Below are positions 14,501 through 28,227 of a stretch of 28,227 bases of DNA, in pieces (the stretch's first letter is position 1; every line of letters starts with the position of its first letter). Origin of the DNA: a virus; IMG/VR virus record IMGVR_UViG_3300020436_000063, positions 1-28,227 of that record; one strand, given 5' to 3'. Position numbers and translations under genes: made by a program. Under the pieces are notes generated by a model, which saw nothing but the letters and a program-made list of their open reading frames with translations, was not told the origin of the DNA and did not search any database.

Positions 14501-17500
14501 AATACCAGTAAAATCTCCTGATATATCATCAAATATAGTATTAGTTGCGTAACTTTGTCTTAAATATACTCTACCGTTAAATTTAGATCTAACAGGATCT
14601 AAGTTTGATGATGTTTTTTGTGTAGAATTAGTTCCTCTTGGAGGATCTGTAAAATGAACAGTGCTATCTACAATATTATATCCACCAGAAAATAATCTTG
14701 CAGTATTGCCTGAACTATGATTTGTTGAAGCAGATCCTATTGCTCCTCTCTCAACTTCAAATAAATTAACACTACCAGTGTTAGTTATCGGACCTACTGA
14801 TGTAGTTCCCAAACCAACATTAGTGACTTTCATAAATTCATCATTAACCTTAACTATATCATTAGAATTAATAGATGATATTCCAGTAACACTAAAAGTA
14901 GTTGCACTACTAGAAATATTATATTCTAGATTAGTTGTGATTGGTGTAAATGCAATTGGAGATTGAATAACACCATCAATAGACATTAATGCTTTTTCAA
15001 CCTTTTTAAACATTTCAAATTCGTGTGCATTACCTGTACCAGTTCCAGTAAATGTAACTGCTATTCCTGCTAATGCGTCAGGACGAGATTTTGAAATTTT
15101 GAAAGTATCTTTATTAATTCTTATTGCATATACTTCTGATCCTAATGTGCCACCTGCAGTTGCTATTCCTGATAACGAAATTCCAGTAAAAGTTGAACCA
15201 GGTGTATAAACTAGTCGTTCACCAGTTTCAAAGAAATGATCAATGATTGTAAATACACCAGTTGCAGCATTCAATGTGCTTACATCTGATGGATTAAATT
15301 GTTTTTGGAATATAGGTTTAGAATCACTTTGTAATTTAAAACTTGTTTTATTTGATCTTGTTCCATTAACTGCATCATACTGTGCAAATGATAATGATTC
15401 AGTAACTGTCCCGTATTGTAAATCAGGTGGAATATTAAGTAAGTCAGTTTCTGAATAAAACGCCTCTGTAAATGATTGAACCTCAACACTATTAGTTCCA
15501 CCACTGTATAGTGGATCTGGGTGGAAGTTAAGACATAGATCATTACCAACTATAGTTGATGAGAATGTCCCTATACCTGATGTGCTTCCAATGGAGATGA
15601 ATGGATATTGTGTTGTATGAGTATCTGTTGAATCATGAGCAACTAATACTTGATGTAGTGAACTTGTTGATCCACTTGATACTCGAACAACTCCTTTAAG
15701 AGAACTAATTTCATTTTCAGTGAATGTTGCAATTGTGGATGCAGATGAAACATTATGGAATTTAGATTCAAATATCGTTGTTCTTTCAGTGCCATCTAAT
15801 TGTCCAGGTAATTTAAATCTATATGTTCCTATACCAGCAGCAGTGGTTCCAATACCAATAATTCTTGATCTAACTAAAACATCATTTGATTGATCATTTT
15901 CAAAGTTTAATGATAATATTCCAGATTCTATTTCAGATTTAAATGTTCCAATAAAATTAGATGTAGGACCATCTTCAGTATCTGCATAAAATTCAGATAT
16001 GAAAGAATTTGTTCCATCATGAGTTAGATATAAATCTACAAAGTTTGTTTGTTCTGTGGTTGTATTATTGACTTCAATTGAAGCAAAGAAAGCATCAATA
16101 TCATTTACGTTTGTTGAAATAATATTTGATGTGCTTGCTACAGATACTGAAGTATTAATACCAGATAAATTTACAAACCCTATTGATTGAGTTCCAATTC
16201 CTGTTAAATTAGTATTATAAAATGTTTTTAATATTTTTAAATCATAATCATTATTATCAGGATCATCAGGTGTAAATTTCAAACTTACATTTCCTGATAT
16301 GTCAATTTCACCCTTAAGTTCTCCTAACTCAGAGGGTGTAGTGTGAATTTTTGCTTTTTCAGCAGTGAATACATCAGTATCATCTTTGTACAAAATAATA
16401 TCTGATAATTGAGTGTTATTATTATTTGGATTTCTTATTTGAACTAAAAACGTCGCATATCTAGTATTAATAGATAAATCTAAAAATTCGGTTAAAGTGC
16501 TTGCTGTGTTTGAAAATAAACCACTTATATCATCTATTTCAAGAACTCTATTAGTTCTACACTCAATATATGGTGATAACTTTGTGTTTTTTAACTTTAG
16601 GAATTTAGATTTACCGTCTACAGTGTCAATATCTAAAGCAAAGTCAAAATTATTAATTGTATCTACTCTTTTTTGATCAATAAAATCTAATGCAAGAGTA
16701 TCTGTAAAACTAGATGTTGTAACACCTGCGTTTGTGACAGATGTTATGCCAACATCAGCAAAATTTTTCAATCCTGTTGTATGAAGTAATCTGTTAACTG
16801 GATTTATTAAATCTTCATATGTAATTCCACTTTTTACACTATACGATAAATTTTGATAATAGTCATTATCTGGAGTAACTTGATAATCTTGACTTAATTT
16901 ACCGATATCATCATTCCAACCTTGATCCTGTCTTAACGAATAACTAATTTCAAAAACACCAGTATTTTTAGATATGGAATTTATTTTTGCAATATTACCA
17001 CTGTTAAAACCTTTTATCAATTGTCCAGCAGTTAAATTAAATGCACCAGGTGATAACTCTTCAATTTTTATTAAATTATTTGATGATTCTGATATCACTA
17101 AATCAACAGCAACGTAAGATGTGCCAACGAATGATAGCAGTTTCTCACCGACACTAAATTTTGATGTTACTTGTGTTACTTTAAAAGTTGGATAATCATT
17201 TTTGCTTATGACTATACCAAATGAATTTTGATTTGTTTTTGCTATCCCAGCATTAGTAGTAATTGAAGATAAATCAAATTCAATTGTAGCTGGATTGGTA
17301 TTGTTTACAGCACTTATTTTAAAGAATTTAAATCCATTATCTCTTGAATTAAATCCTGTGCCTGTTGAACCATCTTTTTGCAATCCCTCAACAAATATTT
17401 CTTCATCAACAGTGAATGGAGCAGTTGTAAATCCTAAAACTGGAGTTACTAATGTGCAAGTTACAATACCAACTGCTTGATTATACTCTAATTTACTTAC

Positions 17501-20500
17501 AGTTGATCCATTAGTATTGTTAAGGGCAAATACTTCATGAGTGATTGACTGTAAACCTTTAGGTGCTACGATAACTTTTACATCTGCTAACGAACTTCCA
17601 TTTAAACTAGCACCAATTATCGCACCAGAAGTATCCTCTTGTCCAGTTAGTGGATTAACAATCACTAAATCTGGGATAGTTGTATAATTTCTACCACCAT
17701 CTACTACTTCAACAGAAGTAATAGTATTTGAATCAATTATTGAAATAACTGGTGAAACAAATGCCTCTGGTTTAAGAGTTGGATCTGAAGAATATTCAAA
17801 ACCAGGATTAAGTATTCTTACATCATCAAGTCTATTAATTGTTGTTGAATCTGGAAGTAAAGTAGCATTAGTTCCTTGAGTTGATGCAATACTTACAAAT
17901 GATGGTAAATTATCATATCCTACACCACCAAAATTAAGATTAACACTTTCAACAGGACCTCTTGCTCTAGGTGATTTGGTAGAATATTTTAAAACACTAG
18001 TCTCAGTGGACGCATATGATAATTTTTCTGGAACTTCAGAAATAGAAATATTAAACGTTGTATAAGAAGCACCGACAACTGGAGGAACGTTAAAAATACT
18101 ATATTGACCACTGTATTTACTATCAAGATAATGAATTTTATTATAATTGAAAACATCAGTATCCGAAGTGCTTATAAAACCAGATTTTTTAATATTATAA
18201 TAAAGATTTGATGGATTATCTTCATAAAAATTAAGTGTTACGGTTGCAGTTGAAGTTACACCAACAGTTCCAACTCCTGTAACTTGAAAATTAGTAGTGT
18301 TGCCAACGGATACGAATTTATTTTTAAAATCTTTATCATAGTAAATTTCTAATTCATATCCTAACAATGAAGTGTGTCCTACTCCAAAAACTAAATTATT
18401 ATTTTTGTAAACAGGAATAGGTGGATTTACTAATGAAAATTCATGATTATTTCCAATTGAACTTAACTCAATAATATTTGCAGGATTATTTGTTACATCA
18501 GAATATGTTTCACCTAATTTAAAATTATTATCATCAACTTTGTAAACGTAATATGACTCTTGATTTGCAAGACCTTCTGATATTGAAGTAGAAATATACT
18601 GTACTTTACTTCCAGTGGTAAAATTATGTGAATTAAAATTAAAATTATTTGTTGAAGTAGTTACACCACTAGATGGTATTATAATTGGATTTATTAGTAA
18701 TTTATGTGTATTTGAATCAAATTTTAAATTAATAGAGGTTGATACACCAATACCTACGGATTGACTTGGTTTTAAGTCAAGATTAATAACATCACCATTC
18801 ACTAAATTATGTGCGGTTGATAATGAAACGACAGAATCAATTCTTTGTAGTTTACCTGTTACTTGAGTAGGATTAGATTCAAGTAAATATTCAAAACTAC
18901 TTGATCCTACTCTGTTATGTCCAACAAATGCTAAACCTGGTGTAGATGTTGTTAACCCAACTTGAGTAACTATACCGACATAATCTTTTGATCTTTTAAT
19001 AATAAAGACATCTTGAGTATTTCCTGAGCCAGGTATAGTGAATGTTGTTACACCATCATCTTTTGACACGGTTAATCCATAACCTGCTGCAGGTTTTGTA
19101 AGTGTTACTCTTTGATTTGTTTCAAATGGGTGATTAGGTAAGAAAACACTATGGGTTGGTATATTAACAACTTTAGATATATCACCTAATGTGGAGAGAG
19201 TTGTCGTACCTAGTCCAACAACAGTTCCAACACCTATACTCTCATGAGGATTAAAATATACTAAATCCTTTAATTCAGAATCAAAATATGTTGTATCTAA
19301 AGAAATATCAAATAAACTAGGAGTTAAACTTAATTTAGTTGATACTGTATGAACCCCAGAAGATATACCTCTTTTTACTCTTATAATATTATTACTATTA
19401 AATGTGTTTAGAACTAATAATTTTTCTGTTCCTATTCCAATGCTACTACCTGCACCAATTCCTGTAGGTATATTTGTTACGTAAATATCAGTTACAATGC
19501 CAGTTGTTGATGAATTTGGAATTTCTTTGTAAACTACAGTAGATGCTGTTTGTATACCAATTACATGAGAACCCGTTAAACCTTTAATTCCAGTTGTGCT
19601 CAATCCAGAAATAACTACATTATCATTATCATTCAATGAAGGTGCTGTTGAAATAAATGCTGATACAGTGTTTGAATCTTTCCAAACAAAAACTGTATCT
19701 TCAAACGTATCAATTGTAGTGTTTATTGATGTTATATCTTTTCCAGTTATACTGTTTACAGATACACTTAATCCACCACCATTAGTTCCAGTGTTATCAA
19801 ATATAGCACTATCTCCAACTTCGTAATTATCACCACTATTGATAATATCAATTGAATTTATGGAACCTGAAGTTGTGCTTTCTACAACTGATGACTGTAA
19901 TGTAATTTCATTTGATTCAATAATGAAATCATTATCAGCAAACTGATCAGAAACTTTATAAGGATAACTATTACGGACTAAATCAGAATCACTAAAATTA
20001 AATGTGTTTTGGTTTATATTGAAGTTTTCATCGGTGGGATTTGATCTATAACTATTTCCTATAAAATAAGGAAAAGATGGTAAAAGAGAGTTAGTTGTTA
20101 TACCAACAAAATATGCATACGTTCCATTAGGATACTCAGGTGTTCTACCATATCTTCCATTATGTACATCTAAATCACCAGAGTTATTAAACTTATAATC
20201 TTCTACGAAAAATCCATTACTAAATCCAGATGGTCTATCAATAATACTTGAAGTATCAAGAACATATCCACTATTTAATATTCTAACTGGTGAGTTTTGA
20301 TCAGTTGAATCACTGTAACCATAAGGACCATAAATTGGATTACCATCATATGCCCAACCTATTATTGGTGAATGACCATTTCCAGAATCACCGAATGAAT
20401 CATTACCTATTTGAGTTGAATAACCAACTAAAGAATAAGCTAATTTATTATTTGTTTCTACAAGTGCTTCATTACCGTATCTATTAAATGTGTTTACAGT

Positions 20501-23500
20501 TAATCCCCTTGTAACTGCCTCTAATTTTGCACCACTGCCTGGTGGGGTTATTTTTATATCAATTTTATCTTGTTGATATTGTAAACCTCCTTCAAGAATA
20601 ATAACATCAACTATCTTACCTCCTTCTACTACTGCTCTCAACTTAGCACCAAGTCCTGTACCAATCCCAACTACCTCTAAATTAGGTGCAGATGTGTATT
20701 CTTGACCCTTTGTTTGTATTTCTACAAAAGTGACTTTTCCGTCTGTTACAATCGGTTTTAGTTGTGCTTCTTTTCCAGTTTTTACGTTAACTGTAATTGA
20801 TTTTTCAAGGTTTAAAATATCAGATCCGTAACCAGTTCCTTTTTCATACAGAAGTATATCTGTAATTGAACCTCTTACAACAGGAGTTGCAGTTATCACT
20901 CCTACAGAGGTATTTGATAGTTCATATTTAAGATTTAATTTAATGTCTGGATATTTAAATACTTGGAATCCTGTTCCTTGATCTGAAAATTTAATATAAT
21001 CATTTCTCTCAAACTCTGATGTGATTGTTCCCCCTATTCCAGCATTTGAAATCCTAAATGAATCATCATCTAACTTAATTATTTGATAAAAATTAGAAGT
21101 GGATGTTATACCAGTATATGTTGATAATCCTGTGATTGAAACAGGGGTTGTAGACCCTAAACCTACAGCAGTGGAGTAAACTACTTTTGCTCCGTTAGCA
21201 AATCCATGATTACTAAATTTAATTACATCTGTAATCGTGTTTATATCTGATGGATTAACAAATATTTGCCTATTTTCATAATTTGAACCACTATCAATAA
21301 CTCTTATATTTTTTAAATTATTTTGACCATCTAAAAGTTTAAATTTGTGAATACCTACCTTATTAGTTGTAGTAAAACCTACTGTGTTTATACCTGAATT
21401 GTAATCAGATAATGTTTGATATAATTGAACTGTTGTTGGGTCTAATACTGATGGATAATATGTTGCAGCATTAATTAAAGTAGTTGTACCTACACCAACC
21501 ACCGAGGTTCCTGCATCATTACCAACAGTTCCAATACCAAGTGGTGGGTTATTATTTCTATCGTAAACAATTGGTTGACCACTTACAATATTATGATCAG
21601 TGCTAAAAGTTAATGTTTCATTTACGTTGTCGATGCCACCAGAATCACTGACTAGTCTTGCATCGAATGATATTTCTCTTCTCCTTTCTTGAAGAACAGG
21701 TTCTAATACAGTTCCAGAACCATTACCACCTTCAATCGTTGCGGAAATAACTCTTTTTATATCAAAATCTTGAGGATCAACTTGAATGTCAGTAATTTTT
21801 CCAGTTACAACTGGTCTGATTAATGCAGTGGTATTATTTGCACCAGATCCAGATAATTGTATGTTTGGTGGATTTATAACGTCATAATCTTTACCACCAT
21901 TTAATAAACTAATGCTTTCAAGAGGACCAAAAAATATTTTATCATTTGACTTGTAATTTCTTATCTCAACACCATTAATTAACATACCTGTTGTTCCAGG
22001 TGTAGTTAATATATTTGTAGAATTTGTTAAACTTGGATTTAATGGAAATTTCTTAAATAATTTTTGTGGTGCAATTTCTTGTTCTTTTATACCAACCAAT
22101 GAAAATGTATGAGTGCCTGATCCTGCAACTAGAGGTTCAAACTCTTCAAAATCACCTATGGGAATAAATGATCTAGATCTGTATAATCTTATTTGGTTAG
22201 TGCTTGTTAATACTTCAACGAAATAGGCAGATTGAGTTAATCCTGGTATAATTGATCCTTGTGCAGTGTAAAATACTTCATCACCAGTAATAAATGGAAC
22301 TGGATTTGGAAATGATAGAATACTATACTTTAAAGTGTTTGGATTATATCCTGATTGTGGAAGTTGATTTCCACCTATGGCATTCGGTAATATTGATTTA
22401 GGTAAAGATGATGTTACTTGGTAAGATGGTAATGAATTAGAAGCAACATAAAAATTATTATTTGACTCATTATACACGTTGGTGACATCAGAAGTTAAAA
22501 TATTATTACCAAACTCCATGTCAGTATTTGTACTAGAGGCACGGTTTATAACTCTTCTCATATCATATTCCCTATTTGGATCAGGGAATAGTGTAATTCC
22601 TGGTTGATTGGTTAAATTATTAATTGTAATAGTTCCTGTTGGTACATCAATATTACCCACAGTTCCAGTTGCTATCTTTGTTTCCTCATTTCTAAATAAA
22701 ATTTCTATGTTATCTCCAAGTTTCAAACTAGACTTATCAATATCTCTAGTGAATAACACTAAGTTTGAACCAGACACACTTTCAACTTTAAATCTAGAGG
22801 AGGTATTATAAATCCAAGAATTAGCAAAAATTTGTTTTCTTGTTTTATTATCCGTTGGATTTAATATTTTTTCACCAACATTACTGACGCTTATTTTTTC
22901 TCCTTCTACCAATAATCTTATATCAGATGTTGGAACAAATTTAGAAAGAACTCCTGTTAGTCTTAATTCAACTTTTTTACTTAAATCACCACCTTCATAT
23001 CCAAAATAAAATTCATCAGATCTAATATCATCAGTGCTTGATATATTATCAATAATATTTTCACAACCAAAGAATTGATTGACAGATTTATCACTGTAGT
23101 AAATATTTGTACTTATTCCAGATATCAAAGTACCAGTTTGTCCAAAACCAACTGTAGAATCTACAGTAATTACTGATGAACCTATAGAAACATCACCAAT
23201 AACTTTAGTTTTACCAGTAATATTAAATGTTCCTTCTATTAAATCTATTTCATTAAAACCTACAAACAATCCAATTTTATAATATACCTTTCCTTTTCTG
23301 GTTAAAGGTTCAACTTCTGATATTGCTGCTCTCGTTTCGCTATCAGTTGATTTAATTATTGTTTGTCCGACTAAATTTATAGGATTTCCTGAAATTGCCT
23401 CTGCTAAAACTATTTCTCTTCTGATATACTCTGCTGATGAAGGTTTTATTAAATATTTCTCTAAATCTATTATTGATGGTGTTTCATTATACAAAATATT

Positions 23501-24142
23501 AAATAATATTCTAAAAGACTCCTCAGTTCCTTTTGACTGGTATAATGATTTTGAATTTTTTATAAAATTACTAACATCAAGATTATTAACAAAGGTAGAG
23601 TTTTCTAAACCAGGTGTGAGTAGTTTTTTTGTCTTTTTATAAAATTCTTTTAAAAATAATGCACTAAGATTAACAACAGTTGCATCAGCATCATGATTTG
23701 TAGATGAAGAATCAGAGAATACTAGTTCTGTAGGATCATTATCTGCATGATATGTCGTTATACCACTAAAACCACGAATACAACCAGTAAAAGTATTTGT
23801 AGTTATACCAGTGTATGTGATTACTTCGTCTTCAATTTTAAAAAGACCATACTCATTAGGAAATCCTTTTGTGGATGTGACAGTTACTGTTGTATCACTT
23901 GTACTTATTCCACTACTTAGTTTAGTTTCACCAACTACTACTTCTGGTGTTAAATTATCTAATTTAATATACTGATCTAGATTATCAGTTAGGTCAATCG
24001 TACCTCCCTGATATTCTTGCGAGATATAATACTGCTTAAGAAAATCAACTGCTTTCGGACTTTCAGATACTAAAAACTCTGGTAGTTGGTTTTGTATTAT
24101 CTGATGGACTTTGACTCTTTTATCAATTCCAGTGGTTATCAT
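11528..24142 (-). CDS. 7: Giant baseplate wedge protein in gp7 position, with YHYH domain (4204 aa)
   Basis: It lies exactly between gp6 and gp8, the place of T4 gene 7 (1032 residues), and probably serves as the gp7-like wedge protein; I infer this mainly from synteny. N-terminal residues 1-65 (KRVKVHQIIQNQLPEFLVSE, FLKQYYISQEYQGG) and the helical part to about 260 look like a docking region. At about 1240-1362 is a YHYH-type domain, with IIGWAYDGNPIYGPYGYSD, HNGRYG, TPEYPNGTYAYFV and FPYFIG. Elsewhere the chain is a mosaic of modules: G-x-GY units, H-x-F-x-x-G-x-x-V-x-Y units, RG/H units, an HAYPR segment near 3527, and three NG-x-x-Q-x-P units (near 3054, 3239 and 3751). The C-terminus (FKTRDSLESQIYPTSKIIGD, then a GFTRGINP segment) looks conserved. 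AGAGGA at 24147-24152 supports the start. No frameshift is visible. Confidence 0.83.
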   Translation of the reverse strand: MITTGIDKRVKVHQIIQNQLPEFLVSESPKAVDFLKQYYISQEYQGGTIDLTDNLDQYIKLDNLTPEVVVGETKLSSGISTSDTTVTVTSTKGFPNEYGLFKIEDEVITYTGITTNTFTGCIRGFSGITTYHADNDPTELVFSDSSSTNHDADATVVNLSALFLKEFYKKTKKLLTPGLENSTFVNNLDVSNFIKNSKSLYQSKGTEESFRILFNILYNETPSIIDLEKYLIKPSSAEYIRREIVLAEAISGNPINLVGQTIIKSTDSETRAAISEVEPLTRKGKVYYKIGLFVGFNEIDLIEGTFNITGKTKVIGDVSIGSSVITVDSTVGFGQTGTLISGISTNIYYSDKSVNQFFGCENIIDNISSTDDIRSDEFYFGYEGGDLSKKVELRLTGVLSKFVPTSDIRLLVEGEKISVSNVGEKILNPTDNKTRKQIFANSWIYNTSSRFKVESVSGSNLVLFTRDIDKSSLKLGDNIEILFRNEETKIATGTVGNIDVPTGTITINNLTNQPGITLFPDPNREYDMRRVINRASSTNTDMEFGNNILTSDVTNVYNESNNNFYVASNSLPSYQVTSSLPKSILPNAIGGNQLPQSGYNPNTLKYSILSFPNPVPFITGDEVFYTAQGSIIPGLTQSAYFVEVLTSTNQIRLYRSRSFIPIGDFEEFEPLVAGSGTHTFSLVGIKEQEIAPQKLFKKFPLNPSLTNSTNILTTPGTTGMLINGVEIRNYKSNDKIFFGPLESISLLNGGKDYDVINPPNIQLSGSGANNTTALIRPVVTGKITDIQVDPQDFDIKRVISATIEGGNGSGTVLEPVLQERRREISFDARLVSDSGGIDNVNETLTFSTDHNIVSGQPIVYDRNNNPPLGIGTVGNDAGTSVVGVGTTTLINAATYYPSVLDPTTVQLYQTLSDYNSGINTVGFTTTNKVGIHKFKLLDGQNNLKNIRVIDSGSNYENRQIFVNPSDINTITDVIKFSNHGFANGAKVVYSTAVGLGSTTPVSITGLSTYTGITSTSNFYQIIKLDDDSFRISNAGIGGTITSEFERNDYIKFSDQGTGFQVFKYPDIKLNLKYELSNTSVGVITATPVVRGSITDILLYEKGTGYGSDILNLEKSITVNVKTGKEAQLKPIVTDGKVTFVEIQTKGQEYTSAPNLEVVGIGTGLGAKLRAVVEGGKIVDVIILEGGLQYQQDKIDIKITPPGSGAKLEAVTRGLTVNTFNRYGNEALVETNNKLAYSLVGYSTQIGNDSFGDSGNGHSPIIGWAYDGNPIYGPYGYSDSTDQNSPVRILNSGYVLDTSSIIDRPSGFSNGFFVEDYKFNNSGDLDVHNGRYGRTPEYPNGTYAYFVGITTNSLLPSFPYFIGNSYRSNPTDENFNINQNTFNFSDSDLVRNSYPYKVSDQFADNDFIIESNEITLQSSVVESTTSGSINSIDIINSGDNYEVGDSAIFDNTGTNGGGLSVSVNSITGKDITSINTTIDTFEDTVFVWKDSNTVSAFISTAPSLNDNDNVVISGLSTTGIKGLTGSHVIGIQTASTVVYKEIPNSSTTGIVTDIYVTNIPTGIGAGSSIGIGTEKLLVLNTFNSNNIIRVKRGISSGVHTVSTKLSLTPSLFDISLDTTYFDSELKDLVYFNPHESIGVGTVVGLGTTTLSTLGDISKVVNIPTHSVFLPNHPFETNQRVTLTKPAAGYGLTVSKDDGVTTFTIPGSGNTQDVFIIKRSKDYVGIVTQVGLTTSTPGLAFVGHNRVGSSSFEYLLESNPTQVTGKLQRIDSVVSLSTAHNLVNGDVINLDLKPSQSVGIGVSTSINLKFDSNTHKLLINPIIIPSSGVTTSTNNFNFNSHNFTTGSKVQYISTSISEGLANQESYYVYKVDDNNFKLGETYSDVTNNPANIIELSSIGNNHEFSLVNPPIPVYKNNNLVFGVGHTSLLGYELEIYYDKDFKNKFVSVGNTTNFQVTGVGTVGVTSTATVTLNFYEDNPSNLYYNIKKSGFISTSDTDVFNYNKIHYLDSKYSGQYSIFNVPPVVGASYTTFNISISEVPEKLSYASTETSVLKYSTKSPRARGPVESVNLNFGGVGYDNLPSFVSIASTQGTNATLLPDSTTINRLDDVRILNPGFEYSSDPTLKPEAFVSPVISIIDSNTITSVEVVDGGRNYTTIPDLVIVNPLTGQEDTSGAIIGASLNGSSLADVKVIVAPKGLQSITHEVFALNNTNGSTVSKLEYNQAVGIVTCTLVTPVLGFTTAPFTVDEEIFVEGLQKDGSTGTGFNSRDNGFKFFKISAVNNTNPATIEFDLSSITTNAGIAKTNQNSFGIVISKNDYPTFKVTQVTSKFSVGEKLLSFVGTSYVAVDLVISESSNNLIKIEELSPGAFNLTAGQLIKGFNSGNIAKINSISKNTGVFEISYSLRQDQGWNDDIGKLSQDYQVTPDNDYYQNLSYSVKSGITYEDLINPVNRLLHTTGLKNFADVGITSVTNAGVTTSSFTDTLALDFIDQKRVDTINNFDFALDIDTVDGKSKFLKLKNTKLSPYIECRTNRVLEIDDISGLFSNTASTLTEFLDLSINTRYATFLVQIRNPNNNNTQLSDIILYKDDTDVFTAEKAKIHTTPSELGELKGEIDISGNVSLKFTPDDPDNNDYDLKILKTFYNTNLTGIGTQSIGFVNLSGINTSVSVASTSNIISTNVNDIDAFFASIEVNNTTTEQTNFVDLYLTHDGTNSFISEFYADTEDGPTSNFIGTFKSEIESGILSLNFENDQSNDVLVRSRIIGIGTTAAGIGTYRFKLPGQLDGTERTTIFESKFHNVSSASTIATFTENEISSLKGVVRVSSGSTSSLHQVLVAHDSTDTHTTQYPFISIGSTSGIGTFSSTIVGNDLCLNFHPDPLYSGGTNSVEVQSFTEAFYSETDLLNIPPDLQYGTVTESLSFAQYDAVNGTRSNKTSFKLQSDSKPIFQKQFNPSDVSTLNAATGVFTIIDHFFETGERLVYTPGSTFTGISLSGIATAGGTLGSEVYAIRINKDTFKISKSRPDALAGIAVTFTGTGTGNAHEFEMFKKVEKALMSIDGVIQSPIAFTPITTNLEYNISSSATTFSVTGISSINSNDIVKVNDEFMKVTNVGLGTTSVGPITNTGSVNLFEVERGAIGSASTNHSSGNTARLFSGGYNIVDSTVHFTDPPRGTNSTQKTSSNLDPVRSKFNGRVYLRQSYATNTIFDDISGDFTGIGQTFDLRVGGANTTGIQTGSSILLLNGIFQTPTTFNNLGNNYEFSETAGVSEVTFTGITSANGTKIISETDVNQNQLPRGGVIVSLGSTGGLGVANLAPAKVKATTNGSGAIVGIVGLATTGNSFTVSDASFNNTTGELQITTSGNHGFRNINEFVRLNGLTFSPTLSISTTTSFSVTGILSATTFTTNVGTSTVTHAYSSGGNAVEFLSDLSFGSGYRNPVSVAVTDLSGNGSSADISAEVVSNTHVFISASTNAVSVTGGSPLTPTGATYDPATGNLVITKASHGLTTSNTVGLATNSFVFRCAQDNFSTDHAYPRSGPTPSSAGGDPAHNATLAITAVTTNTFTVNVGITNTGTGGALKFTINNAGTGYTQPQIQVSSPSYENLPIIGVSRRGIGSTTDTGTGATLTIGVGAADTTVGLGSTSFEVKSFSLDNNGYNFKVGDVFKPVGLVTDRFLNTSQLISDFELTVTKVFRDQYSSWNFGDFDFIDSIKELQNGERKRFPLIYNASLLSFEVDEDNPDSSLINLDALLLIFVNGVIQDPGESYTFDGGTSFEFAVAPDADDIIDIFFYKGTTGVDAVQVSAGSSVSPTIKTGDVVQVFKNTSGITTTQKQRTIYAIKSSDEVETDLYTQLGVDERNFKPLSWIKQKVDKKVNGEIVFKTRDSLESQIYPTSKIIGDLSSTDNELFVDNARFFNYEEDNSALSVGSVGGLIVGAGEPVSAGFTATVSIGGTISAITITNGGSGYVGSTTSISISAPQSIGVGIGSTATATATITNGVITNTTIVNPGFGYTIAAVPQVLAQLPRAIKEDVDVITTVEGYDGIISGISVTEGTGSHPLALKFTLEPDFVNNANSTATQLKVGYPIFIFGTKVGHGVTSVDGSNSTVVATGTTCLDNIYIINDYNAAVGIITCNIDTGVNTTGINGASVGFGTGEFSWGRLSGFTRGINPISIGVTGLTIDSGLTTYPSIQRRDFGLRDTGSLRKDLG
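20057..20425 (-). other. YHYH-type domain region inside the giant wedge protein
   Basis: Codons for residues about 1240-1362. The diagnostic elements in order are VGYSTQIGNDSFGDSGNGHS, GWAYDGNPIYGPYGY, an aromatic-rich stretch with FVEDYKF, DVHNGRYGRTPEYPNGTY, and FPYFIGNSYRS. This order matches the YHYH protein domain, which is found in bacterial extracellular proteins and in marine phage tail proteins. Its biochemical role is not established to my knowledge. Domain limits are estimated by eye. Confidence 0.75.
20511..20841 (-). repeat. Three tandem GxGY-type protein modules within the giant wedge gene
   Basis: Three consecutive copies of a roughly 35-40 residue unit: GTGYGSDILN, GQEYTSAPNLEVVGIGTGLG and GGLQYQQDKIDIKITPPGSG. 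Each is followed by A-K-L or A-Q-L, a short variable strand, and a V-x-x-G-K-I/V turn. The copies are divergent at the protein level, and no close DNA repeat is evident. Further single or paired copies lie elsewhere in this gene and in both neighbouring large genes. Confidence 0.6.
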
Positions 24143-24143
24143 A

Positions 24144-26081
24144 CTATCCTCTTATCAACGCTCCATTTGAATAACTTGATGTGACCTTATAACCGACACC
24201 TGATATCTGTTCTCCAGAAGTAATTGTGTCCTTAACCATATTTATGGTACTATTAGATACAGAAAAACTCAAATATAAGTCTTTAAGACCAACTACATCA
24301 TTTGACTCTGGAAAAGCTTGAATTTCTATAATATTATTAGTTTTTATAGTAGAAGTAATATTAATTGTTGACAAAATGATCTCACCATGAATATAATCAA
24401 CTATTCCAGCAGAAGCAACAACAAGACGATTCTCCTCCTGTTCGACATTACCTTTTACAATAGCTAATATTCCCTTACCACTACCATCAAGTGTTCCATC
24501 ATTATTCTTATTTGGAATATCAGTAAGATAAACAGTATCAGATTGACCCTGTATAGTAAATCCAGTGCTTTTAATATTACGACCTTCTGGATTTATATGA
24601 AAATTATTTCCAAAACATAATTCATACTGTGCAAACTGGTTTACAAGTGCTCTTAAATTTCTTCTTATAATAACTCTTGATATATTTGATGTTATTGCAT
24701 CATCAATATTATCAATAACATTCAAAACCTTACTATATTTAAAACGACCACCAAATTTGTTAAGATCAGTAGATGAAGCATAGTTAAGAAGACCATTTGT
24801 TACATTTGTCTTCAGGTCTGATGCGGTTGTTACCTTTGATTGATCATAATATACAAATGAGTCAAGTTCAACATAAAGTAACTTAAGATCTAGTAGTTTT
24901 TGGTTTATACCTGCTAATGTGTAACTTTTTAAATTAGACAATATTGATTGTTTATCAAAATCTGAAACAAATTCACCATTTTTTGGTTTTATTGTTATAA
25001 AAACGGTTCCAAACTCAGGTGGATCTAACTCCTCACCACCAACTACTGAAACAGATTCTGTATTTGGGTATATTTGTTGTATTACTGATTCGTAGTCCCT
25101 TGCTGTAACTGCTCTGTACTGTGATGAATACAATCTAGGTGCAAAATACTTAATTGAATCAATTGACTCGATATTACCTCCATTGGCTGCAGAGGAAACA
25201 GTTGTGATAGTTGGAGTTGCAGTTGGTAATACTATTTGATTAATAGAATTTGCAATACTACCTGCGTATGTAAATGATGCAGGTCCATTACCCTCTGTTC
25301 CGTCGGTCACTATGTATGATACTGTGATAATTGCATCATTTTCAAGTTTTTTGCCAAAAACACCATCACCAAATAGTATCTCATACCTCTCATCAGTAAC
25401 TTCTTGTATTAAATATGTTTCAGATATATCAGTGATATTGATAATGTTGTCTACTTTACGATATTCCCTTCCCAATCCAGTATCTGAAGCACCTTTTACG
25501 TAAACTTTAAGAGTTGAAGTGTCAATAAATGAATTATCAATCAAAAATCTCTGATCTAATGACCCATCAACAGTATATGTCTTTGTTAAATAAGTTCCTT
25601 GATAAACAATTATATTACTAAATGATCCTGTGCTTGAAATTATATTACCATTGGCATCAGTTGCCTGTGTTGTGGTAGTTGTAATTGTTTCTGGTACGGA
25701 AAATACAAAAGATGAGTCATTATTTGTACCTACACATACTAATCCTGCTTGTAAAGTGAGTGATGGTGTATTTGAAGCAGTTGTTATGTCAAAGGAAACC
25801 ACCGCTTGAGCAGAAGTTCTTGATCTTGGTACATATCCTATGTTTCGTGCAAGTGAAACTACATTTTCACGAAGTGTTGCTGAGTCTAGAAAGGACTCAT
25901 TTACAATCATGTTTGAATTAAATGCTGTAATATAGGTATTGTATGCTAAAGTATCAATTAAAACAGAAAAATTTGATCCCTCAAAGTCAAAATCAGTAAA
26001 ATCTGAGTTAGCACGAATATAATCTTTAATTGATGACTTAATTTGATCGAAATCAAGGTTTGTAAACTTAGTAAAAGGCAT
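24144..26081 (-). CDS. 6: Baseplate wedge subunit gp6
   Basis: Homologue of T4 gp6 (660 residues; here 645), which forms the inner ring of the baseplate wedge and holds gp7 and gp25. The N-terminus shows FDFEGSNFSVLIDTLAYNT (31-49) and NESFLDSATLRENVV then IGYVPRS (61-87), the most conserved gp6 stretch (T4 has DYDFEGSRLNVLCDLLAYNT). Near 236-245 is FGDGVFGKKL followed by TDGTEGNGPASF, the FGDG-x-G signature shared with baseplate J-type proteins. Residues about 317-357 carry YRAVTARDYESVIQQIYPNT, also typical. The start lies directly at the gp25 stop with only a weak ribosome-binding site, so translation probably depends on coupling to gp25. It is the second gene of the late unit that begins upstream of gp25. 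Confidence 0.94.
   Translation of the reverse strand: MPFTKFTNLDFDQIKSSIKDYIRANSDFTDFDFEGSNFSVLIDTLAYNTYITAFNSNMIVNESFLDSATLRENVVSLARNIGYVPRSRTSAQAVVSFDITTASNTPSLTLQAGLVCVGTNNDSSFVFSVPETITTTTTQATDANGNIISSTGSFSNIIVYQGTYLTKTYTVDGSLDQRFLIDNSFIDTSTLKVYVKGASDTGLGREYRKVDNIINITDISETYLIQEVTDERYEILFGDGVFGKKLENDAIITVSYIVTDGTEGNGPASFTYAGSIANSINQIVLPTATPTITTVSSAANGGNIESIDSIKYFAPRLYSSQYRAVTARDYESVIQQIYPNTESVSVVGGEELDPPEFGTVFITIKPKNGEFVSDFDKQSILSNLKSYTLAGINQKLLDLKLLYVELDSFVYYDQSKVTTASDLKTNVTNGLLNYASSTDLNKFGGRFKYSKVLNVIDNIDDAITSNISRVIIRRNLRALVNQFAQYELCFGNNFHINPEGRNIKSTGFTIQGQSDTVYLTDIPNKNNDGTLDGSGKGILAIVKGNVEQEENRLVVASAGIVDYIHGEIILSTINITSTIKTNNIIEIQAFPESNDVVGLKDLYLSFSVSNSTINMVKDTITSGEQISGVGYKVTSSYSNGALIRG
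24147..24152 (-). promoter_or_regulatory. Shine-Dalgarno AGAGGA for the giant wedge gene, inside the end of gp6
   Basis: The minus strand reads AGAGGA followed by TAGT and the ATG at 24142. The six bases are the final Arg and Gly codons of gp6 and abut its stop. This fixes the start of the giant gene and suggests translational coupling with gp6. Confidence 0.65.
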
Positions 26082-26483
26082 TTATCTTGTTGCTTCTAAT
26101 ATGAATGTAAATTCTTGTGCAGGAACTTGTTGTCCGACAATATTAAAGAAGACCGTAACCTCAAAATCGTTCAAATCTGGTCTTGGATTTACTTCAACTG
26201 ATACATTATCAATTCTAGGTTCAAAATTTTCAAGAGTTATTTCAATTTCACTCTGAATTACAGATGCAGTTCCGTAATCTACAAAGTCAAACAAACTATC
26301 TCTTACCTGAGAACCTAAAACTGCATTAAAAAATCTTTCAGTTGGTATAGTTTGCACTAAATTTCTAACGGATGCCTTAATTGCATTCTCATTCTTAAGA
26401 ATTGGGAGATCTTTTGTGATAGGATGAGGGGTAAAGGACAAAGAAATGTCCTTAAATGCTCTTGATATCCGTTTTATTGCCAT
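26082..26483 (-). CDS. 25: Baseplate wedge subunit gp25
   Basis: Homologue of T4 gp25 (132 residues; here 133), the lysozyme-like-fold wedge protein that nucleates sheath assembly together with gp6 and gp53. The family's EPR signature is present as FEPRI (87-91), after QTIPTERFFNAVLGSQVRD (44-62; compare GER-x-F in relatives), and the C-terminal segment VPAQEFTFILEATR closes the domain. T4 gp25 is no longer thought to act as a lysozyme, and nothing here suggests enzymatic function. It is the first gene after two late-promoter-like octamers (26505-26512 and 26534-26541), so it heads the gp25-gp6-gp7 unit. AGGA lies 13 bases upstream of the ATG, with a 12-base palindrome between them. The next gene starts at the base after its stop. 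Confidence 0.95.
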   Translation of the reverse strand: MAIKRISRAFKDISLSFTPHPITKDLPILKNENAIKASVRNLVQTIPTERFFNAVLGSQVRDSLFDFVDYGTASVIQSEIEITLENFEPRIDNVSVEVNPRPDLNDFEVTVFFNIVGQQVPAQEFTFILEATR

Positions 26484-26484
26484 G

Positions 26485-26496
26485 AAACAATTGTTT
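26485..26496 (-). repeat. 12-base perfect palindrome in the gp25 leader
   Basis: AAACAATTGTTT reads the same on both strands and lies between the AGGA ribosome-binding site (26497-26500) and the gp25 ATG (26483). It could form a small AAAC/GTTT hairpin that shortens the effective spacing, or it may be chance in AT-rich DNA. Confidence 0.35.
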
Positions 26497-26504
26497 TCCT
26501 GTTT

Positions 26505-26512
26505 TATTTATG
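26505..26512 (-). promoter_or_regulatory. Late promoter CATAAATA upstream of gp25
   Basis: The minus strand reads CATAAATA, 21 bases before the gp25 ATG, in the 53-base gap 26484-26536. One mismatch to TATAAATA; marine T4-like phages are known to use relaxed forms ending in TAAATA. It heads the gp25-gp6-gp7 unit. Confidence 0.65.
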
Positions 26513-26533
26513 ACACTTTTTTGTAAATGTTAT

Positions 26534-26541
26534 TATTTATC
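26534..26541 (-). promoter_or_regulatory. Second late-promoter-like octamer GATAAATA overlapping upstream stop
   Basis: The minus strand reads GATAAATA, 29 bases upstream of the 26505-26512 copy, and it overlaps the stop codon of the CPYA protein gene. It may be a tandem late promoter for gp25 or a chance match in AT-rich DNA. Confidence 0.4.
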
Positions 26542-27037
26542 CTAATTCTTGTTCAATATTGATTTTAACGACTGGATAATCCTCTTCTAGAACCTCTTTT
26601 AGATAAGATTTGTCCCAATATTTGTAATAATCTGTTTTTGAAAGTTTTTTTCTTGCCTCTGTTAACTCATTTCTTGGTTGACAGAGCACTAAATTGTATT
26701 TTCCGTTACTTGTTTGAACTCCTTGTATGTAAGTTTTCTTTTTTTGATGATCTGCAATGAATTTAAAGTCAGAATAGTTACGATTATAGTCATCAACCGC
26801 ATCATATAGAAAATTTTCACTAATATTATCTTCTACAACGTAAATAACCACATCATAATTAGAATCTGGCATGATTTGGCTTAATTTTTCATCAATAATT
26901 GCAAAATTTGCCTTTGATGCATAAGGACATATTGCAAAATTACCTAATTCTGGTCTAACTTTTGATAATTGACCAATCCAATGTAAAATATATCTACTCT
27001 TCTCGTCTTTCATCGGGTGTTGTCCAGAAATAATCAT
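26537..27037 (-). CDS. Protein of unknown function with CPYA motif (166 aa)
   Basis: No assigned function. From the chosen start, residues 12-46 read KSRYILHWIGQLSK, then ELGNFAICPYASKANFAI, with a possibly functional Cys in CPYA (37-40). After this come a beta strand (YDVVIYVVED, 61-70), DDYNRNYSDFKFIADH (82-97), YNLVLCQPRNEL (114-125) and a charged helical end. The W-x9-x-CP-[FY]-A arrangement faintly recalls the DUF1415 family, but the rest does not clearly match. Three starts are possible: GTG at 27046, ATG at 27037 and ATG at 27013. I chose 27037 because AGGTGA (27043-27048) lies 5 bases upstream; 27013 is a fair alternative, as it begins just before the conserved-looking part. The gene overlaps the 3' end of the 218-residue gene by 44 bases. 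Confidence 0.68.
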   Translation of the reverse strand: MIISGQHPMKDEKSRYILHWIGQLSKVRPELGNFAICPYASKANFAIIDEKLSQIMPDSNYDVVIYVVEDNISENFLYDAVDDYNRNYSDFKFIADHQKKKTYIQGVQTSNGKYNLVLCQPRNELTEARKKLSKTDYYKYWDKSYLKEVLEEDYPVVKINIEQELG

Positions 27038-27650
27038 CACAATCACCTAATCGACCCCAATTGACATCATTCTCAACCTCAAAAATACGTGTTGATACCT
27101 TAAAATCGGGTATTTTAACATTTTGAGGTGTCATTGAGGTGTCATAGATGCGACATCGGTTGTTTGGATAGAGTGCAAACTGTCCATTTCTCAATTGAAT
27201 GAGGTTAAATGACTTATGTTCATCAGGCATTTCACTTGTAGAGGCATCTATTTGGTCAAAATCACCATGATAGTTGTCTAAAGTGCAAATATACTGTCCT
27301 TTTTGATTGCCAAAGTGTCTTGTACGTAGTTCCCACTCCATTGGTGCGACAAATTGCTTCACAATTACAGTAAAATCATAGTCCATACAGTTCCAAAACT
27401 GTAAATTGACCAAATCCATGTCAGGATCAGGTGTTTTTGGAGATGATAAAAACGCAGATATTGGTAATTTATCGTACATTGCACCATATTCTGGTAAATA
27501 TGTCTCAAAATAGAAGGCACGACCTTGTATTGATTTAGCAGTAACCCATAAACCCTCTACAAATTCACCAAAACCTGATTGAAAGTCAGTTAAATATTCT
27601 TTTCTTACCCATACTTTCTTTGTAGGTAAATTTGCTATGTAGTTTGCCAT
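26994..27650 (-). CDS. Conserved-looking phage protein of unknown function (218 aa)
   Basis: I recognise the style of this protein from marine T4-like phages but know of no function. It is soluble, rich in aromatics and mixed alpha/beta. Residues 12-20 are KVWVRKEYL, 34-66 include LWVTAKSIQGRAFYFETYLP, EYGAMYDKLPISAF, and 80-100 hold LVNLQFWNCMDYDFTVIVK. The middle contains an acidic stretch with ICTLDNYHGDFDQIDAS, and the end holds PNNRCRIYDTS and GDCDDYFWTT. The four Cys are scattered and do not form a zinc-knuckle pattern. There is no signal peptide or membrane segment. The start overlaps the upstream acyltransferase-like gene by 16 bases, and its end overlaps the CPYA gene. No strong ribosome-binding site is visible, so it is probably coupled. 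A late or assembly role is only suggested by location. Confidence 0.72.
   Translation of the reverse strand: MANYIANLPTKKVWVRKEYLTDFQSGFGEFVEGLWVTAKSIQGRAFYFETYLPEYGAMYDKLPISAFLSSPKTPDPDMDLVNLQFWNCMDYDFTVIVKQFVAPMEWELRTRHFGNQKGQYICTLDNYHGDFDQIDASTSEMPDEHKSFNLIQLRNGQFALYPNNRCRIYDTSMTPQNVKIPDFKVSTRIFEVENDVNWGRLGDCDDYFWTTPDERREE
27043..27048 (-). promoter_or_regulatory. Shine-Dalgarno AGGTGA deciding the start of the CPYA gene
   Basis: The minus strand reads AGGTGA, 5 bases upstream of the ATG at 27037, within the coding end of the 218-residue gene. It favours 27037 over the GTG at 27046, whose codon it overlaps, and over the ATG at 27013, which has only a weak TGGA upstream. Confidence 0.45.
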
Positions 27651-28078
27651 GTATCAAAAAAGTTTGAAATTTCGTATCCGTCTAATTTTGCTTTGTAGTT
27701 TGATGATTCTCCCAAATAGAAGTAATCAAACCCAAGTCTTTTATATAGTGCAATCTCATTCTTATTAGCAATATGTCCAAGACCTAACTTTTTATTCTTA
27801 TAATCCCATGCGAACTGATCTGCCCATACACTGTTTACACTCTTAAAACGATATGCAAGAGTAAAGGCAACTAATTCATTACCATCATAATATCCAATCA
27901 CATCAGAATGAGGAAGTTCAAACTCCTCAACGAAGATTGGCACAATATCTTTAAACTTCTTATAAGTTACATATTGCTTGTATATCTCTAAGCAACGGTT
28001 AAAAGAAGAACCATCAAGAATACGATAGTTATGGTACTCTTGATAGTTTGTGTCTTTTAATCGAATGCGACAAAACAT
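27635..28078 (-). CDS. GNAT-fold protein resembling arginyl/leucyl-protein transferases (147 aa)
   Basis: The C-terminal half (about residues 58-145) looks like a GNAT-type acyltransferase: VIGYYDGNELVAFTLAYRF, then VWADQFAWDY, LGLGHIANKNEIALYKRLGF, DYFYLGESSNYKAKLDGYE and a final FDTW. The order F/Y-x-YLG, then YK-x-K/R, then E, then W resembles the C-terminal domain of ATE1/Bpt aminoacyl-protein transferases, which move Arg or Leu from tRNA onto protein N-termini. This is a by-eye similarity, and the N-terminal Cys-rich domain of ATE enzymes is absent, so activity and substrate are not established. No signal peptide is present. The start overlaps the upstream stop by one base (TAATG), and its end overlaps the next gene by 16 bases. 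Role in the phage is unknown. Confidence 0.7.
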   Translation of the reverse strand: MFCRIRLKDTNYQEYHNYRILDGSSFNRCLEIYKQYVTYKKFKDIVPIFVEEFELPHSDVIGYYDGNELVAFTLAYRFKSVNSVWADQFAWDYKNKKLGLGHIANKNEIALYKRLGFDYFYLGESSNYKAKLDGYEISNFFDTWQTT

Positions 28079-28215
28079 TATTTGCCTTGTCCTTTGTATC
28101 TTTTACGAGCCGAGTTACGGGATGTTGCCGAGTATTTGGAGTGTTTTCCTTTTCCTTGACGAGTTTTTTTCGGACGACTTTCAATCGTGTTGCCCATACT
28201 AAATGTTTTTGCCAT
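28078..28215 (-). CDS. Small very basic protein (45 aa), function unknown
   Basis: A complete 45-residue gene starts at ATG 28215, after an in-frame TGA at 28222-28224, and ends in TAA overlapping the next ATG (TAATG). The product begins MAKTFSMGNTIESRPKKTRQ, continues GKGKHSKYSATSRNSARKRY and ends KGQGK. It is strongly basic (15 Lys/Arg, one Glu, no Asp), rich in Ser and Gly, and has no hydrophobic core, so it is probably unstructured alone and may bind nucleic acid or an acidic protein surface. I recognise this type of small protein from marine T4-like phages but know of no function. An internal ATG at 28197 (MGNTIESR) is an alternative start. Confidence 0.7.
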   Translation of the reverse strand: MAKTFSMGNTIESRPKKTRQGKGKHSKYSATSRNSARKRYKGQGK

Positions 28216-28227
28216 TGTTTGTCATTG

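Follow-up and report, generated by a model that had tools for sequence, protein, structure and literature searches.

Four overlapping genes upstream of gp25

The analysed window, a stretch of 28,227 bases (positions 1 to 28,227 of the IMG/VR virus record IMGVR_UViG_3300020436_000063), is by its gene content a fragment of a T4-like cyanophage relative, and its best annotated match is phage S-SKS1, with 68.2% identity at the DNA level across 78% of the searched stretch. On the minus strand, a block of four open reading frames (ORFs) precedes the genes of gp25 and gp6 and a very long gp7-like ORF. The block comprises a gene for a basic protein of 45 amino acids (aa) belonging to phrog_516 (28078..28215), a gene for a 147-aa protein with a stand-alone GNAT domain of the ATE_C type (27635..28078), a gene for a 218-aa protein of phrog_3704, which usually goes under the names PurM or ferredoxin (26994..27650), and a gene for a 158-aa protein of phrog_10325, a putative heme-type oxygenase referred to here by its CPYA motif (26537..27013). 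A preliminary description had proposed that the tight overlaps of these genes reflect co-production and perhaps a joint task in assembly or modification. All four ORFs were found on the minus strand where they had been placed, and the overlaps of 1 base between the 45-aa and 147-aa genes and of 16 bases between the 147-aa and 218-aa genes were confirmed.

The third overlap exists as well, but its length of 44 bases needs correction. The full extent of the CPYA ORF is 26537-27046 on the minus strand, and the overlap with the 218-aa gene amounts to 53, 44 or 20 bases if the gene starts at 27046 (GTG), at 27037, as assumed previously, or at 27013, respectively. A methionine is found at the position equivalent to 27013 in 123 of the 134 assessed loci with the motif (two more could not be assessed), compared with 60 of 134 at the equivalent of 27037, and in some relatives in-frame stops are located upstream of the CPYA start. 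Because the methionine at 27013 is far more often conserved, we favour this start, which gives a protein of 158 aa and makes an overlap of 20 bases the most likely one. When the junction was analysed in the 133 non-contained loci that hold both genes, including that of the window, the overlap with a methionine start was 20 bases in 122 loci and 17 bases in nine, while two loci could not be placed. The junction between the 218-aa and CPYA genes is thus closely kept, beyond chance.

A late promoter core lies between the block and gp25

The baseplate wedge protein gp25 (26082..26483, minus strand; Pfam GPW_gp25, 45.5 bits) opens the unit gp25-gp6-gp7. The window contains seven copies of ATAAATA, the T4-type late promoter core, compared to 19.8 copies expected from shuffled sequences. 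All seven are located on the coding strand, and four of them lie just upstream of gene starts, namely of the ORFs beginning at 2590 and 11501 and, with two copies, of gp25. The latter two are found on the minus strand at 26505..26511 and, at the end of the CPYA gene, at 26534..26540, while the motif is absent from the block in the window (26541-28227).

The same arrangement was observed in related loci, among which the copy of the window itself is counted. In 126 of 131 loci, ATAAATA was present after the block and ahead of gp25 (4.01 per kb), whereas the block sequence, taken from the start of the 147-aa or 218-aa gene to near the end of the CPYA gene, contained only three copies in 175,247 bases (0.02 per kb). 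In the 128 loci with enough sequence, the 120 bases preceding the 45-aa gene never contained a copy. A simple sigma-70 scan of positions 24000-28227 returned 24 sites versus 23.0 in shuffled sequences and, since this number is close to the shuffled expectation, says nothing on promoters. On the earlier statement that no promoter lies between the block genes, the sigma-70 scan is uninformative either way, and the late core is absent there in the window. Given the position of the late core, the late baseplate unit appears to be opened by gp25 and probably does not include the block. From this we infer that the block may be expressed earlier than gp25; read-through may also occur.

Gene order is kept in close relatives, and the genes occur apart in other phages

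To compare gene orders, IMG/VR was scanned with the 147-aa, 218-aa and CPYA proteins, keeping the best 80 loci per scan; together with three annotated phage loci and that of the window, and after removal of contained copies, this resulted in 194 loci. Since the loci were retrieved by similarity and many of them lie at contig ends, the following classes are not to be read as frequencies. The complete order 45aa > 147aa > 218aa > CPYA > gp25 > gp6 was found in 82 loci, including that of the window, and the order 45aa > 218aa > gp25 > gp6, in which no 147-aa or CPYA gene was detected, in 45. Further classes were 218aa > CPYA > gp25 > gp6 (24 loci), 147aa > 218aa > CPYA > gp25 > gp6 (11 loci) and 45aa > 218aa > CPYA > gp25 > gp6 (10 loci). 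The remaining 22 loci held fewer genes, except for one (L124), in which the 45-aa gene follows the 218-aa gene.

In annotated phages the genes were found apart. The 218-aa family member of P-SSM2 is located at 144 kb and gp25 at 72 kb, that of S-SSM5 lies near gp5 and tRNA genes, and in HTVC008M (L216, 3471-5744) the gene is flanked by those of the alpha and beta subunits of ribonucleotide reductase, with one further ORF separating it from the first of them. The family was also found in the pelagiphages HTVC023P and HTVC033P and in Flavobacterium and Pseudanabaena phages. Conversely, S-SCSM2R, Syn1 and S-PM2 carry the CPYA gene just before gp25, with one small ORF in between, and no 218-aa gene was found in the fetched stretch of about 3 kb on either side of CPYA. 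The order of the four genes is kept in close relatives, and the genes part in annotated phages; scattering or independent loss, which the preliminary description had named as the outcome that would speak against a shared task, is largely what we found.

The 45-aa gene diverges with the baseplate genes, the other three do not

Pairwise protein distances were compared by Spearman correlation among the 47 loci that contain all six genes at adequate length (1,081 pairs). The distances of the 45-aa gene followed those of gp25 (0.84) and gp6 (0.82) almost as closely as gp25 and gp6 followed each other (0.90). In contrast, the 147-aa, 218-aa and CPYA genes correlated weakly with gp25 and gp6 (0.25-0.44) and also among themselves (0.25-0.47). 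Gene size alone cannot explain these weak correlations, because the 45-aa gene, though tiny, tracks the backbone. In 26 of the 1,081 pairs, gp6 differs by more than 38% while the 218-aa protein differs by less than 3%; there are 218-aa proteins only 0-2% apart in phages with gp6 proteins 45-47% apart.

The 218-aa gene also showed the lowest ratio of nonsynonymous to synonymous substitutions (dN/dS) of the six genes, with a median of 0.065 (n = 98) compared to 0.241 for gp25 (n = 99), in loci that were not purged of overlapping copies. A lower synonymous divergence of the block relative to gp25 and gp6 was set aside, since the loci had been picked by similarity to block genes and the 99 loci include overlapping copies.

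The 45-aa protein was found in 443 phage records, whose names all refer to Synechococcus, Prochlorococcus, cyanophages or marine viruses. We read this, together with its divergence, as a gene that is inherited with the T4-like baseplate backbone and encodes a common cyanophage protein without an assigned function. In the 40 records listed, the protein is hypothetical, unknown or unannotated, apart from one case under a feature called ferredoxin (S-CAM9).

The 218-aa protein lacks the domains of PurM

With 351.7 bits over nearly its whole length, the 218-aa protein matches phrog_3704, which is labelled "ferredoxin", and it matches 114 phage records. Among the 60 of these records that were listed, 34 carry a purM or phosphoribosylaminoimidazole label (five of them with the product "ferredoxin"), seven are named "ferredoxin" alone, three "transcriptional regulator", and 16 are hypothetical or unannotated; these labels were counted by hand, and some matches touch two features.

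Neither the purM nor the ferredoxin name is supported by the domain content. The PurM domains AIRS and AIRS_C (PF00586, PF02769) were absent from the 218-aa protein of the window, from six further members and from 46 aligned sequences. The phage P-SSM2 allows a direct comparison, since its member of the family, PSSM2_175 (222 aa, T4-GC 171), adjoins and overlaps PSSM2_176 (331 aa, T4-GC 172), and both are called purM. PSSM2_176, which served as control, matched AIRS with 80.6 and AIRS_C with 87.1 bits, whereas PSSM2_175 and five other family members had no Pfam match at E ≤ 1. No similarity was detected between the two P-SSM2 proteins (BLASTP E 0.66; hhalign E 0.24-0.39). The 218-aa protein thus shares with PurM (AIR synthetase) the name only; it lacks the AIRS domains, has two thirds of the length of PSSM2_176 and a different predicted fold, and we reject its identity as PurM. 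The adjacency in P-SSM2 may be the origin of the name.

Ferredoxin was likewise rejected as the function, as Fer2 was not found in the same set of family sequences and the ferredoxin is a separate neighbouring gene in S-8S56 (Fer2, 84.5 bits). In this phage (L228, 2711-3001), the gene of a plant-type [2Fe-2S] ferredoxin overlaps the start of the 218-aa family gene by one base, an adjacency that may be the source of the "ferredoxin" label. The baseplate protein gp53 was dismissed too, as the 218-aa protein matches phrog_3704 instead.

An AlphaFold2 model based on 46 sequences reached a mean predicted local distance difference test score (pLDDT) of 78.0, with residues 131-144 and 185-204 below 50. 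By its matches, it appears to have two beta barrels at about residues 4-72 and 97-174, and the best solved matches are Tudor/SH3-like, i.e. SETDB1 (Z 7.4 over 65 residues), UHRF1 (6.3) and 53BP1 (5.9). Plain Foldseek against solved structures gave no significant match for the model, and a profile search of solved structures gave nothing useful for the family. Against viral models, we obtained four significant matches (20-54% identity), followed by two weak ones to "transcriptional regulator" entries of T4-like phages (E 0.031 and 0.11). CARDS-D2_trefoil (PF22509) was matched by 21 of the 46 family sequences (best E 2.7e-5) but was given no weight, because the window protein scores 19.3 bits against a cut-off of 26 and the matching stretch lies largely in the low-confidence part of the model. 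Based on the barrel model and its matches, we propose that the 218-aa protein may be a barrel protein whose binding partner is nucleic acid or a host protein.

A comparable protein is MotB of T4, for which KOW and OB domains have been predicted and nonspecific DNA binding is described (PMC7827196). According to its model, the 218-aa protein would resemble it as a small, two-domain, beta-rich phage protein, and the "transcriptional regulator" entries of T4-like phages are weak matches of its model. Homology to MotB found no support in sequence comparison (hhalign E 0.34, 0.18 and 0.2), and MotB is retained as an analogy only.

The name has entered the literature. Papers on marine phages treat purM as an auxiliary metabolic gene; it was reported from 45% of 82 pelagiphage genomes (PMC9599517) and from cyanophage CL131 (PMC6293099), and Sullivan et al. 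(2010) list it among the non-core genes of cyanophages, naming P-HM1 (PMC3037559). We found a member of the 218-aa family under the purM label in P-HM1 and in the records of HTVC023P, 023Pt_psg01 (pelagiphage lineage) and CL131. A printed correction of the cyanophage PurM name was not found in the open-licence library that was searched. Confirmation of our result would alter the published claims on purM as an auxiliary gene and leave, as an open target, a phage protein that is both common and strongly conserved.

The CPYA protein is related to bacterial CP[FY]A proteins

The CPYA protein matches phrog_10325 (function unknown) with 107.7 bits, and the cysteine and proline of its motif are invariant in 14 sequences. 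Pfam and NCBIfam gave no credible family; single relatives had weak scattered matches (best E 0.0016), and DUF1415 and DUF6875 were not among the nine weak families matched by any of the 14 sequences at E ≤ 10. A DUF1415 search of the window and 14 control genomes also remained without a match.

Cellular relatives retrieved by DNA pattern were limited to two contigs. The DUF1415 search of 292 genomes of the cyanobacterial phylum returned four weak matches, and the two that were examined both carry the motif CPFA, one of them ending in KTEYYKNW compared to KTDYYKYW in the CPYA protein. The resulting CP[FY]A family is present in eight of the 292 genomes. The phage profile aligned to the eight CP[FY]A proteins with a probability of 98.7 (hhalign, E 1.8e-16, 138 columns). 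Two CP[FY]A proteins, when scanned, stayed just below the DUF1415 cut-off of 26 (24.0 and 24.8; E 3.8e-5 and 2.1e-5) and also below that of DUF6875 (E 0.0028 and 0.0022). In a profile comparison with six DUF6875 proteins, obtained from 6 of 244 genomes, the eight CP[FY]A proteins reached a probability of 85.8 (E 5.3e-6), and the CPYA protein reached 43.4 (E 2.4e-4) over 28 columns that cover a helix and the CP[FY] cysteine. The corresponding scores of 44.1 and 32.8 exceeded those of 40 shuffles each (at most 21.7 and 16.6, respectively). Judged by these profile comparisons, the CPYA protein is clearly homologous to the bacterial CP[FY]A proteins, which in turn link to DUF1415 and DUF6875 (PF07209 and PF21780). 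The CPYA protein is homologous to proteins that match both families weakly and has the CP[FY] cysteine motif in common with DUF6875, but it matches neither Pfam model and is shorter.

DUF6875 proteins are stated to bind heme and to oxidise L-tryptophan (PMC13307353). An AlphaFold2 model of the CPYA protein (15 sequences, pLDDT 78.6) was compared with 995 solved chains, where entries of AglA took the top five places (VIA-align 2, Z 5.4 to 4.3; next 3.4), the first with a root-mean-square deviation of 3.8 over 132 residues. AglA is a heme-thiolate N-hydroxylase of the YqcI/YcgG family of heme enzymes, to which DcsA also belongs, and the heme of AglA is bound by Cys44 (PMC12866846). AglA and the CPYA protein each have one early cysteine, and Cys44 of AglA and Cys29 of CPYA could be equivalent. 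By sequence, CP[FY]A scored 26.2 against YqcI/YcgG, compared to at most 20.1 in 60 shuffles and 24.2 for the unrelated gp25 profile.

Several observations weigh against such a relationship. The Z score of 5.4 is below the level where such matches are safe, the model is uncertain at the cysteine loop (residues 25-33 below pLDDT 50), and plain Foldseek gave no match for it at E ≤ 0.001. The CP[FY]A link to YqcI/YcgG is not significant (probability 7.6), the weak signal was lost in a merged profile of CPYA and CP[FY]A (17.0, within its shuffles), CPYA itself reached only E 0.21-0.3, and DUF6875 versus YqcI/YcgG scored 23.0, within its shuffles (at most 23.2). YqcI/YcgG (PF08892) had no match in the window at E ≤ 10, and a profile search of solved structures gave nothing useful for CPYA. 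Since the AglA match of the model is weak and a secure sequence link to YqcI/YcgG was not obtained, heme binding by the CPYA protein is a reasoned hypothesis and not a result. In the open-licence library that was searched, no phage heme enzyme of this kind was found, and none of the papers found on DUF6875 or DUF1415 is by title on phages; if true, such an enzyme would represent a new kind of phage auxiliary gene.

In a single genome of the cyanobacterial phylum (L496, 4689-12045), FG-GAP, YqcI/YcgG, a 279-aa ORF, CP[FY]A, PhyH, Rieske, SDR and sulfotransferase genes were found. The CP[FY]A gene is separated from YqcI/YcgG by the 279-aa ORF, which has no Pfam match, and lies beside PhyH; the arrangement resembles an oxidative tailoring cluster.

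The 147-aa protein has an ATE_C-type domain

The match of the 147-aa protein to ATE_C (Pfam PF04377) has 25.8 bits, just above the cut-off of 25, and the match was obtained at E ≤ 0.01 in all 19 aligned sequences of the family. Among solved structures, its profile aligned with arginyltransferases, its residues 62-132 pairing with 237-311 of these (E 2.1e-4); in a single-sequence search, two spermine/spermidine acetyltransferase chains ranked first (E 1.2e-4 and 1.5e-4). ATE_N was not found in the family, and the sole match other than ATE_C, seen in a single member, was to a GNAT domain. Taken together, these matches indicate that the 147-aa protein is a stand-alone protein of predicted GNAT fold, closest to the C-terminal half of arginyl transferases. 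It shares ATE_C and the aligned residues with the arginyl- and leucyl-tRNA-protein transferases ATE1 and Bpt, but it has no detected ATE_N and only 147 aa compared to 503-518 in the solved chains. No match was found in 50,697 phage records at E ≤ 0.01; IMG/VR contains 86 relatives.

A probable accessory cassette next to a backbone gene

The best explanation of the whole, to which we assign a probability of roughly 0.55, is that the block consists of one backbone gene, encoding the 45-aa protein, and an accessory cassette, and is not one assembly module. This cassette would consist of the 147-aa, 218-aa and CPYA genes and occupy a variable site, flanked by the 45-aa gene on one side and by the gp25 late promoter on the other. 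Its transcription would most likely come from upstream and would precede, or be separate from, that of the late baseplate genes, and the overlaps of the three genes would couple their translation. In the infected cyanobacterium, the 147-aa protein would probably carry out aminoacyl or acyl transfer like an arginyl-tRNA-protein transferase. The 218-aa protein, not being PurM, would probably bind nucleic acid or a host protein with its predicted tandem SH3/Tudor barrels, similar to a host-takeover protein of the MotB type, and the CPYA protein would probably act as a small oxygenase-like enzyme of the DUF1415/DUF6875 type that carries heme on the cysteine of CP[YF]A and receives electrons from ferredoxin. 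The statement that three of the four proteins are without known function needs revision.

Some of our data count against this interpretation. A true module would also show a conserved junction between the 218-aa and CPYA genes, and it would match the order, which is constant with one exception wherever several block genes co-occur. The 218-aa gene lies near gp25 also in the isolates S-SKS1, Sf-CH5, S-8S56 and S-B05, its low divergence by itself lowers, and may contribute to, its weak correlations, and the barrel matches of its model reach Z 7.4 at most.

Four readings compete with the cassette; they are not mutually exclusive, and their probabilities need not sum to one. The proposal of the preliminary description that the four proteins act jointly in baseplate assembly or modification draws on the location of the block, immediately ahead of gp25 within this clade and close to it in several isolates, and on the kept order and overlap. 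We consider it very unlikely, as in 126 of 131 loci the late promoter intervenes between block and gp25, the genes also occur separately, their mutual co-divergence is weak, and none of the four proteins matched a structural-protein family in the family-library searches. Co-production, the other part of that proposal, is plausible from the kept order and because in 131 of 133 loci the 218-aa gene overlaps the CPYA gene by 20 or 17 bases. This overlap and the constant order also speak against four small variable-region genes with unrelated tasks that are adjacent only through tight phage packing, without a functional link. Gene overlaps are usual in phages, and the weak mutual co-divergence would fit such genes as well, so that we regard this reading as possible, at odds well short of even.

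It is rather improbable that the cassette is a tailoring set for small molecules or peptides, in which a single product, a peptide or an amino acid, is modified by three proteins: the GNAT/ATE protein, the barrel protein and the CPYA oxygenase. The CP[FY]A gene of the one bacterial genome described above, near YqcI/YcgG and beside the PhyH dioxygenase gene, followed by Rieske, SDR and sulfotransferase genes, would agree with it, but phages do not always carry the three genes together, and no precursor or exporter was seen, none having been searched for. The least probable reading, which we consider hardly tenable, is that the 218-aa protein really is PurM and its gene an auxiliary gene of purine synthesis. 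In its favour are the labels of 34 of the 60 listed records (of 114 found) and the papers that count such genes as purM; against it stand the missing AIRS and AIRS_C domains, the dissimilar true PurM encoded side by side in P-SSM2, and the barrels of the model.

Extending the cassette reading, we tentatively put forward a joint claim, which we hold to be doubtful as a whole. The CPYA protein would be a phage enzyme of the oxygenase type with a cysteine-ligated heme, of the DUF1415/DUF6875 kind and fed by a host or phage ferredoxin; DUF1415, DUF6875 and YqcI/YcgG would constitute one heme-thiolate superfamily; and the cyanophage "PurM" would be a Tudor-barrel host-takeover protein, so that published counts of purine genes would include a gene of another function. 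The value of the analysis lies in two leads: one is a phage protein that is both widespread and misnamed, the other a phage-encoded relative of the heme-binding DUF6875/DUF1415 proteins.

Further features of the window

A PADLOC search for defence genes gave no match, except for CPYA to JetC1 with an E value of 0.015. In the position of gp7, the baseplate wedge initiator, the window contains a single ORF of 4204 aa (11528-24142), about four times the size of T4 gp7, and very long ORFs were likewise found in the gp7 position of P-SSM2 and S-SCSM2R.

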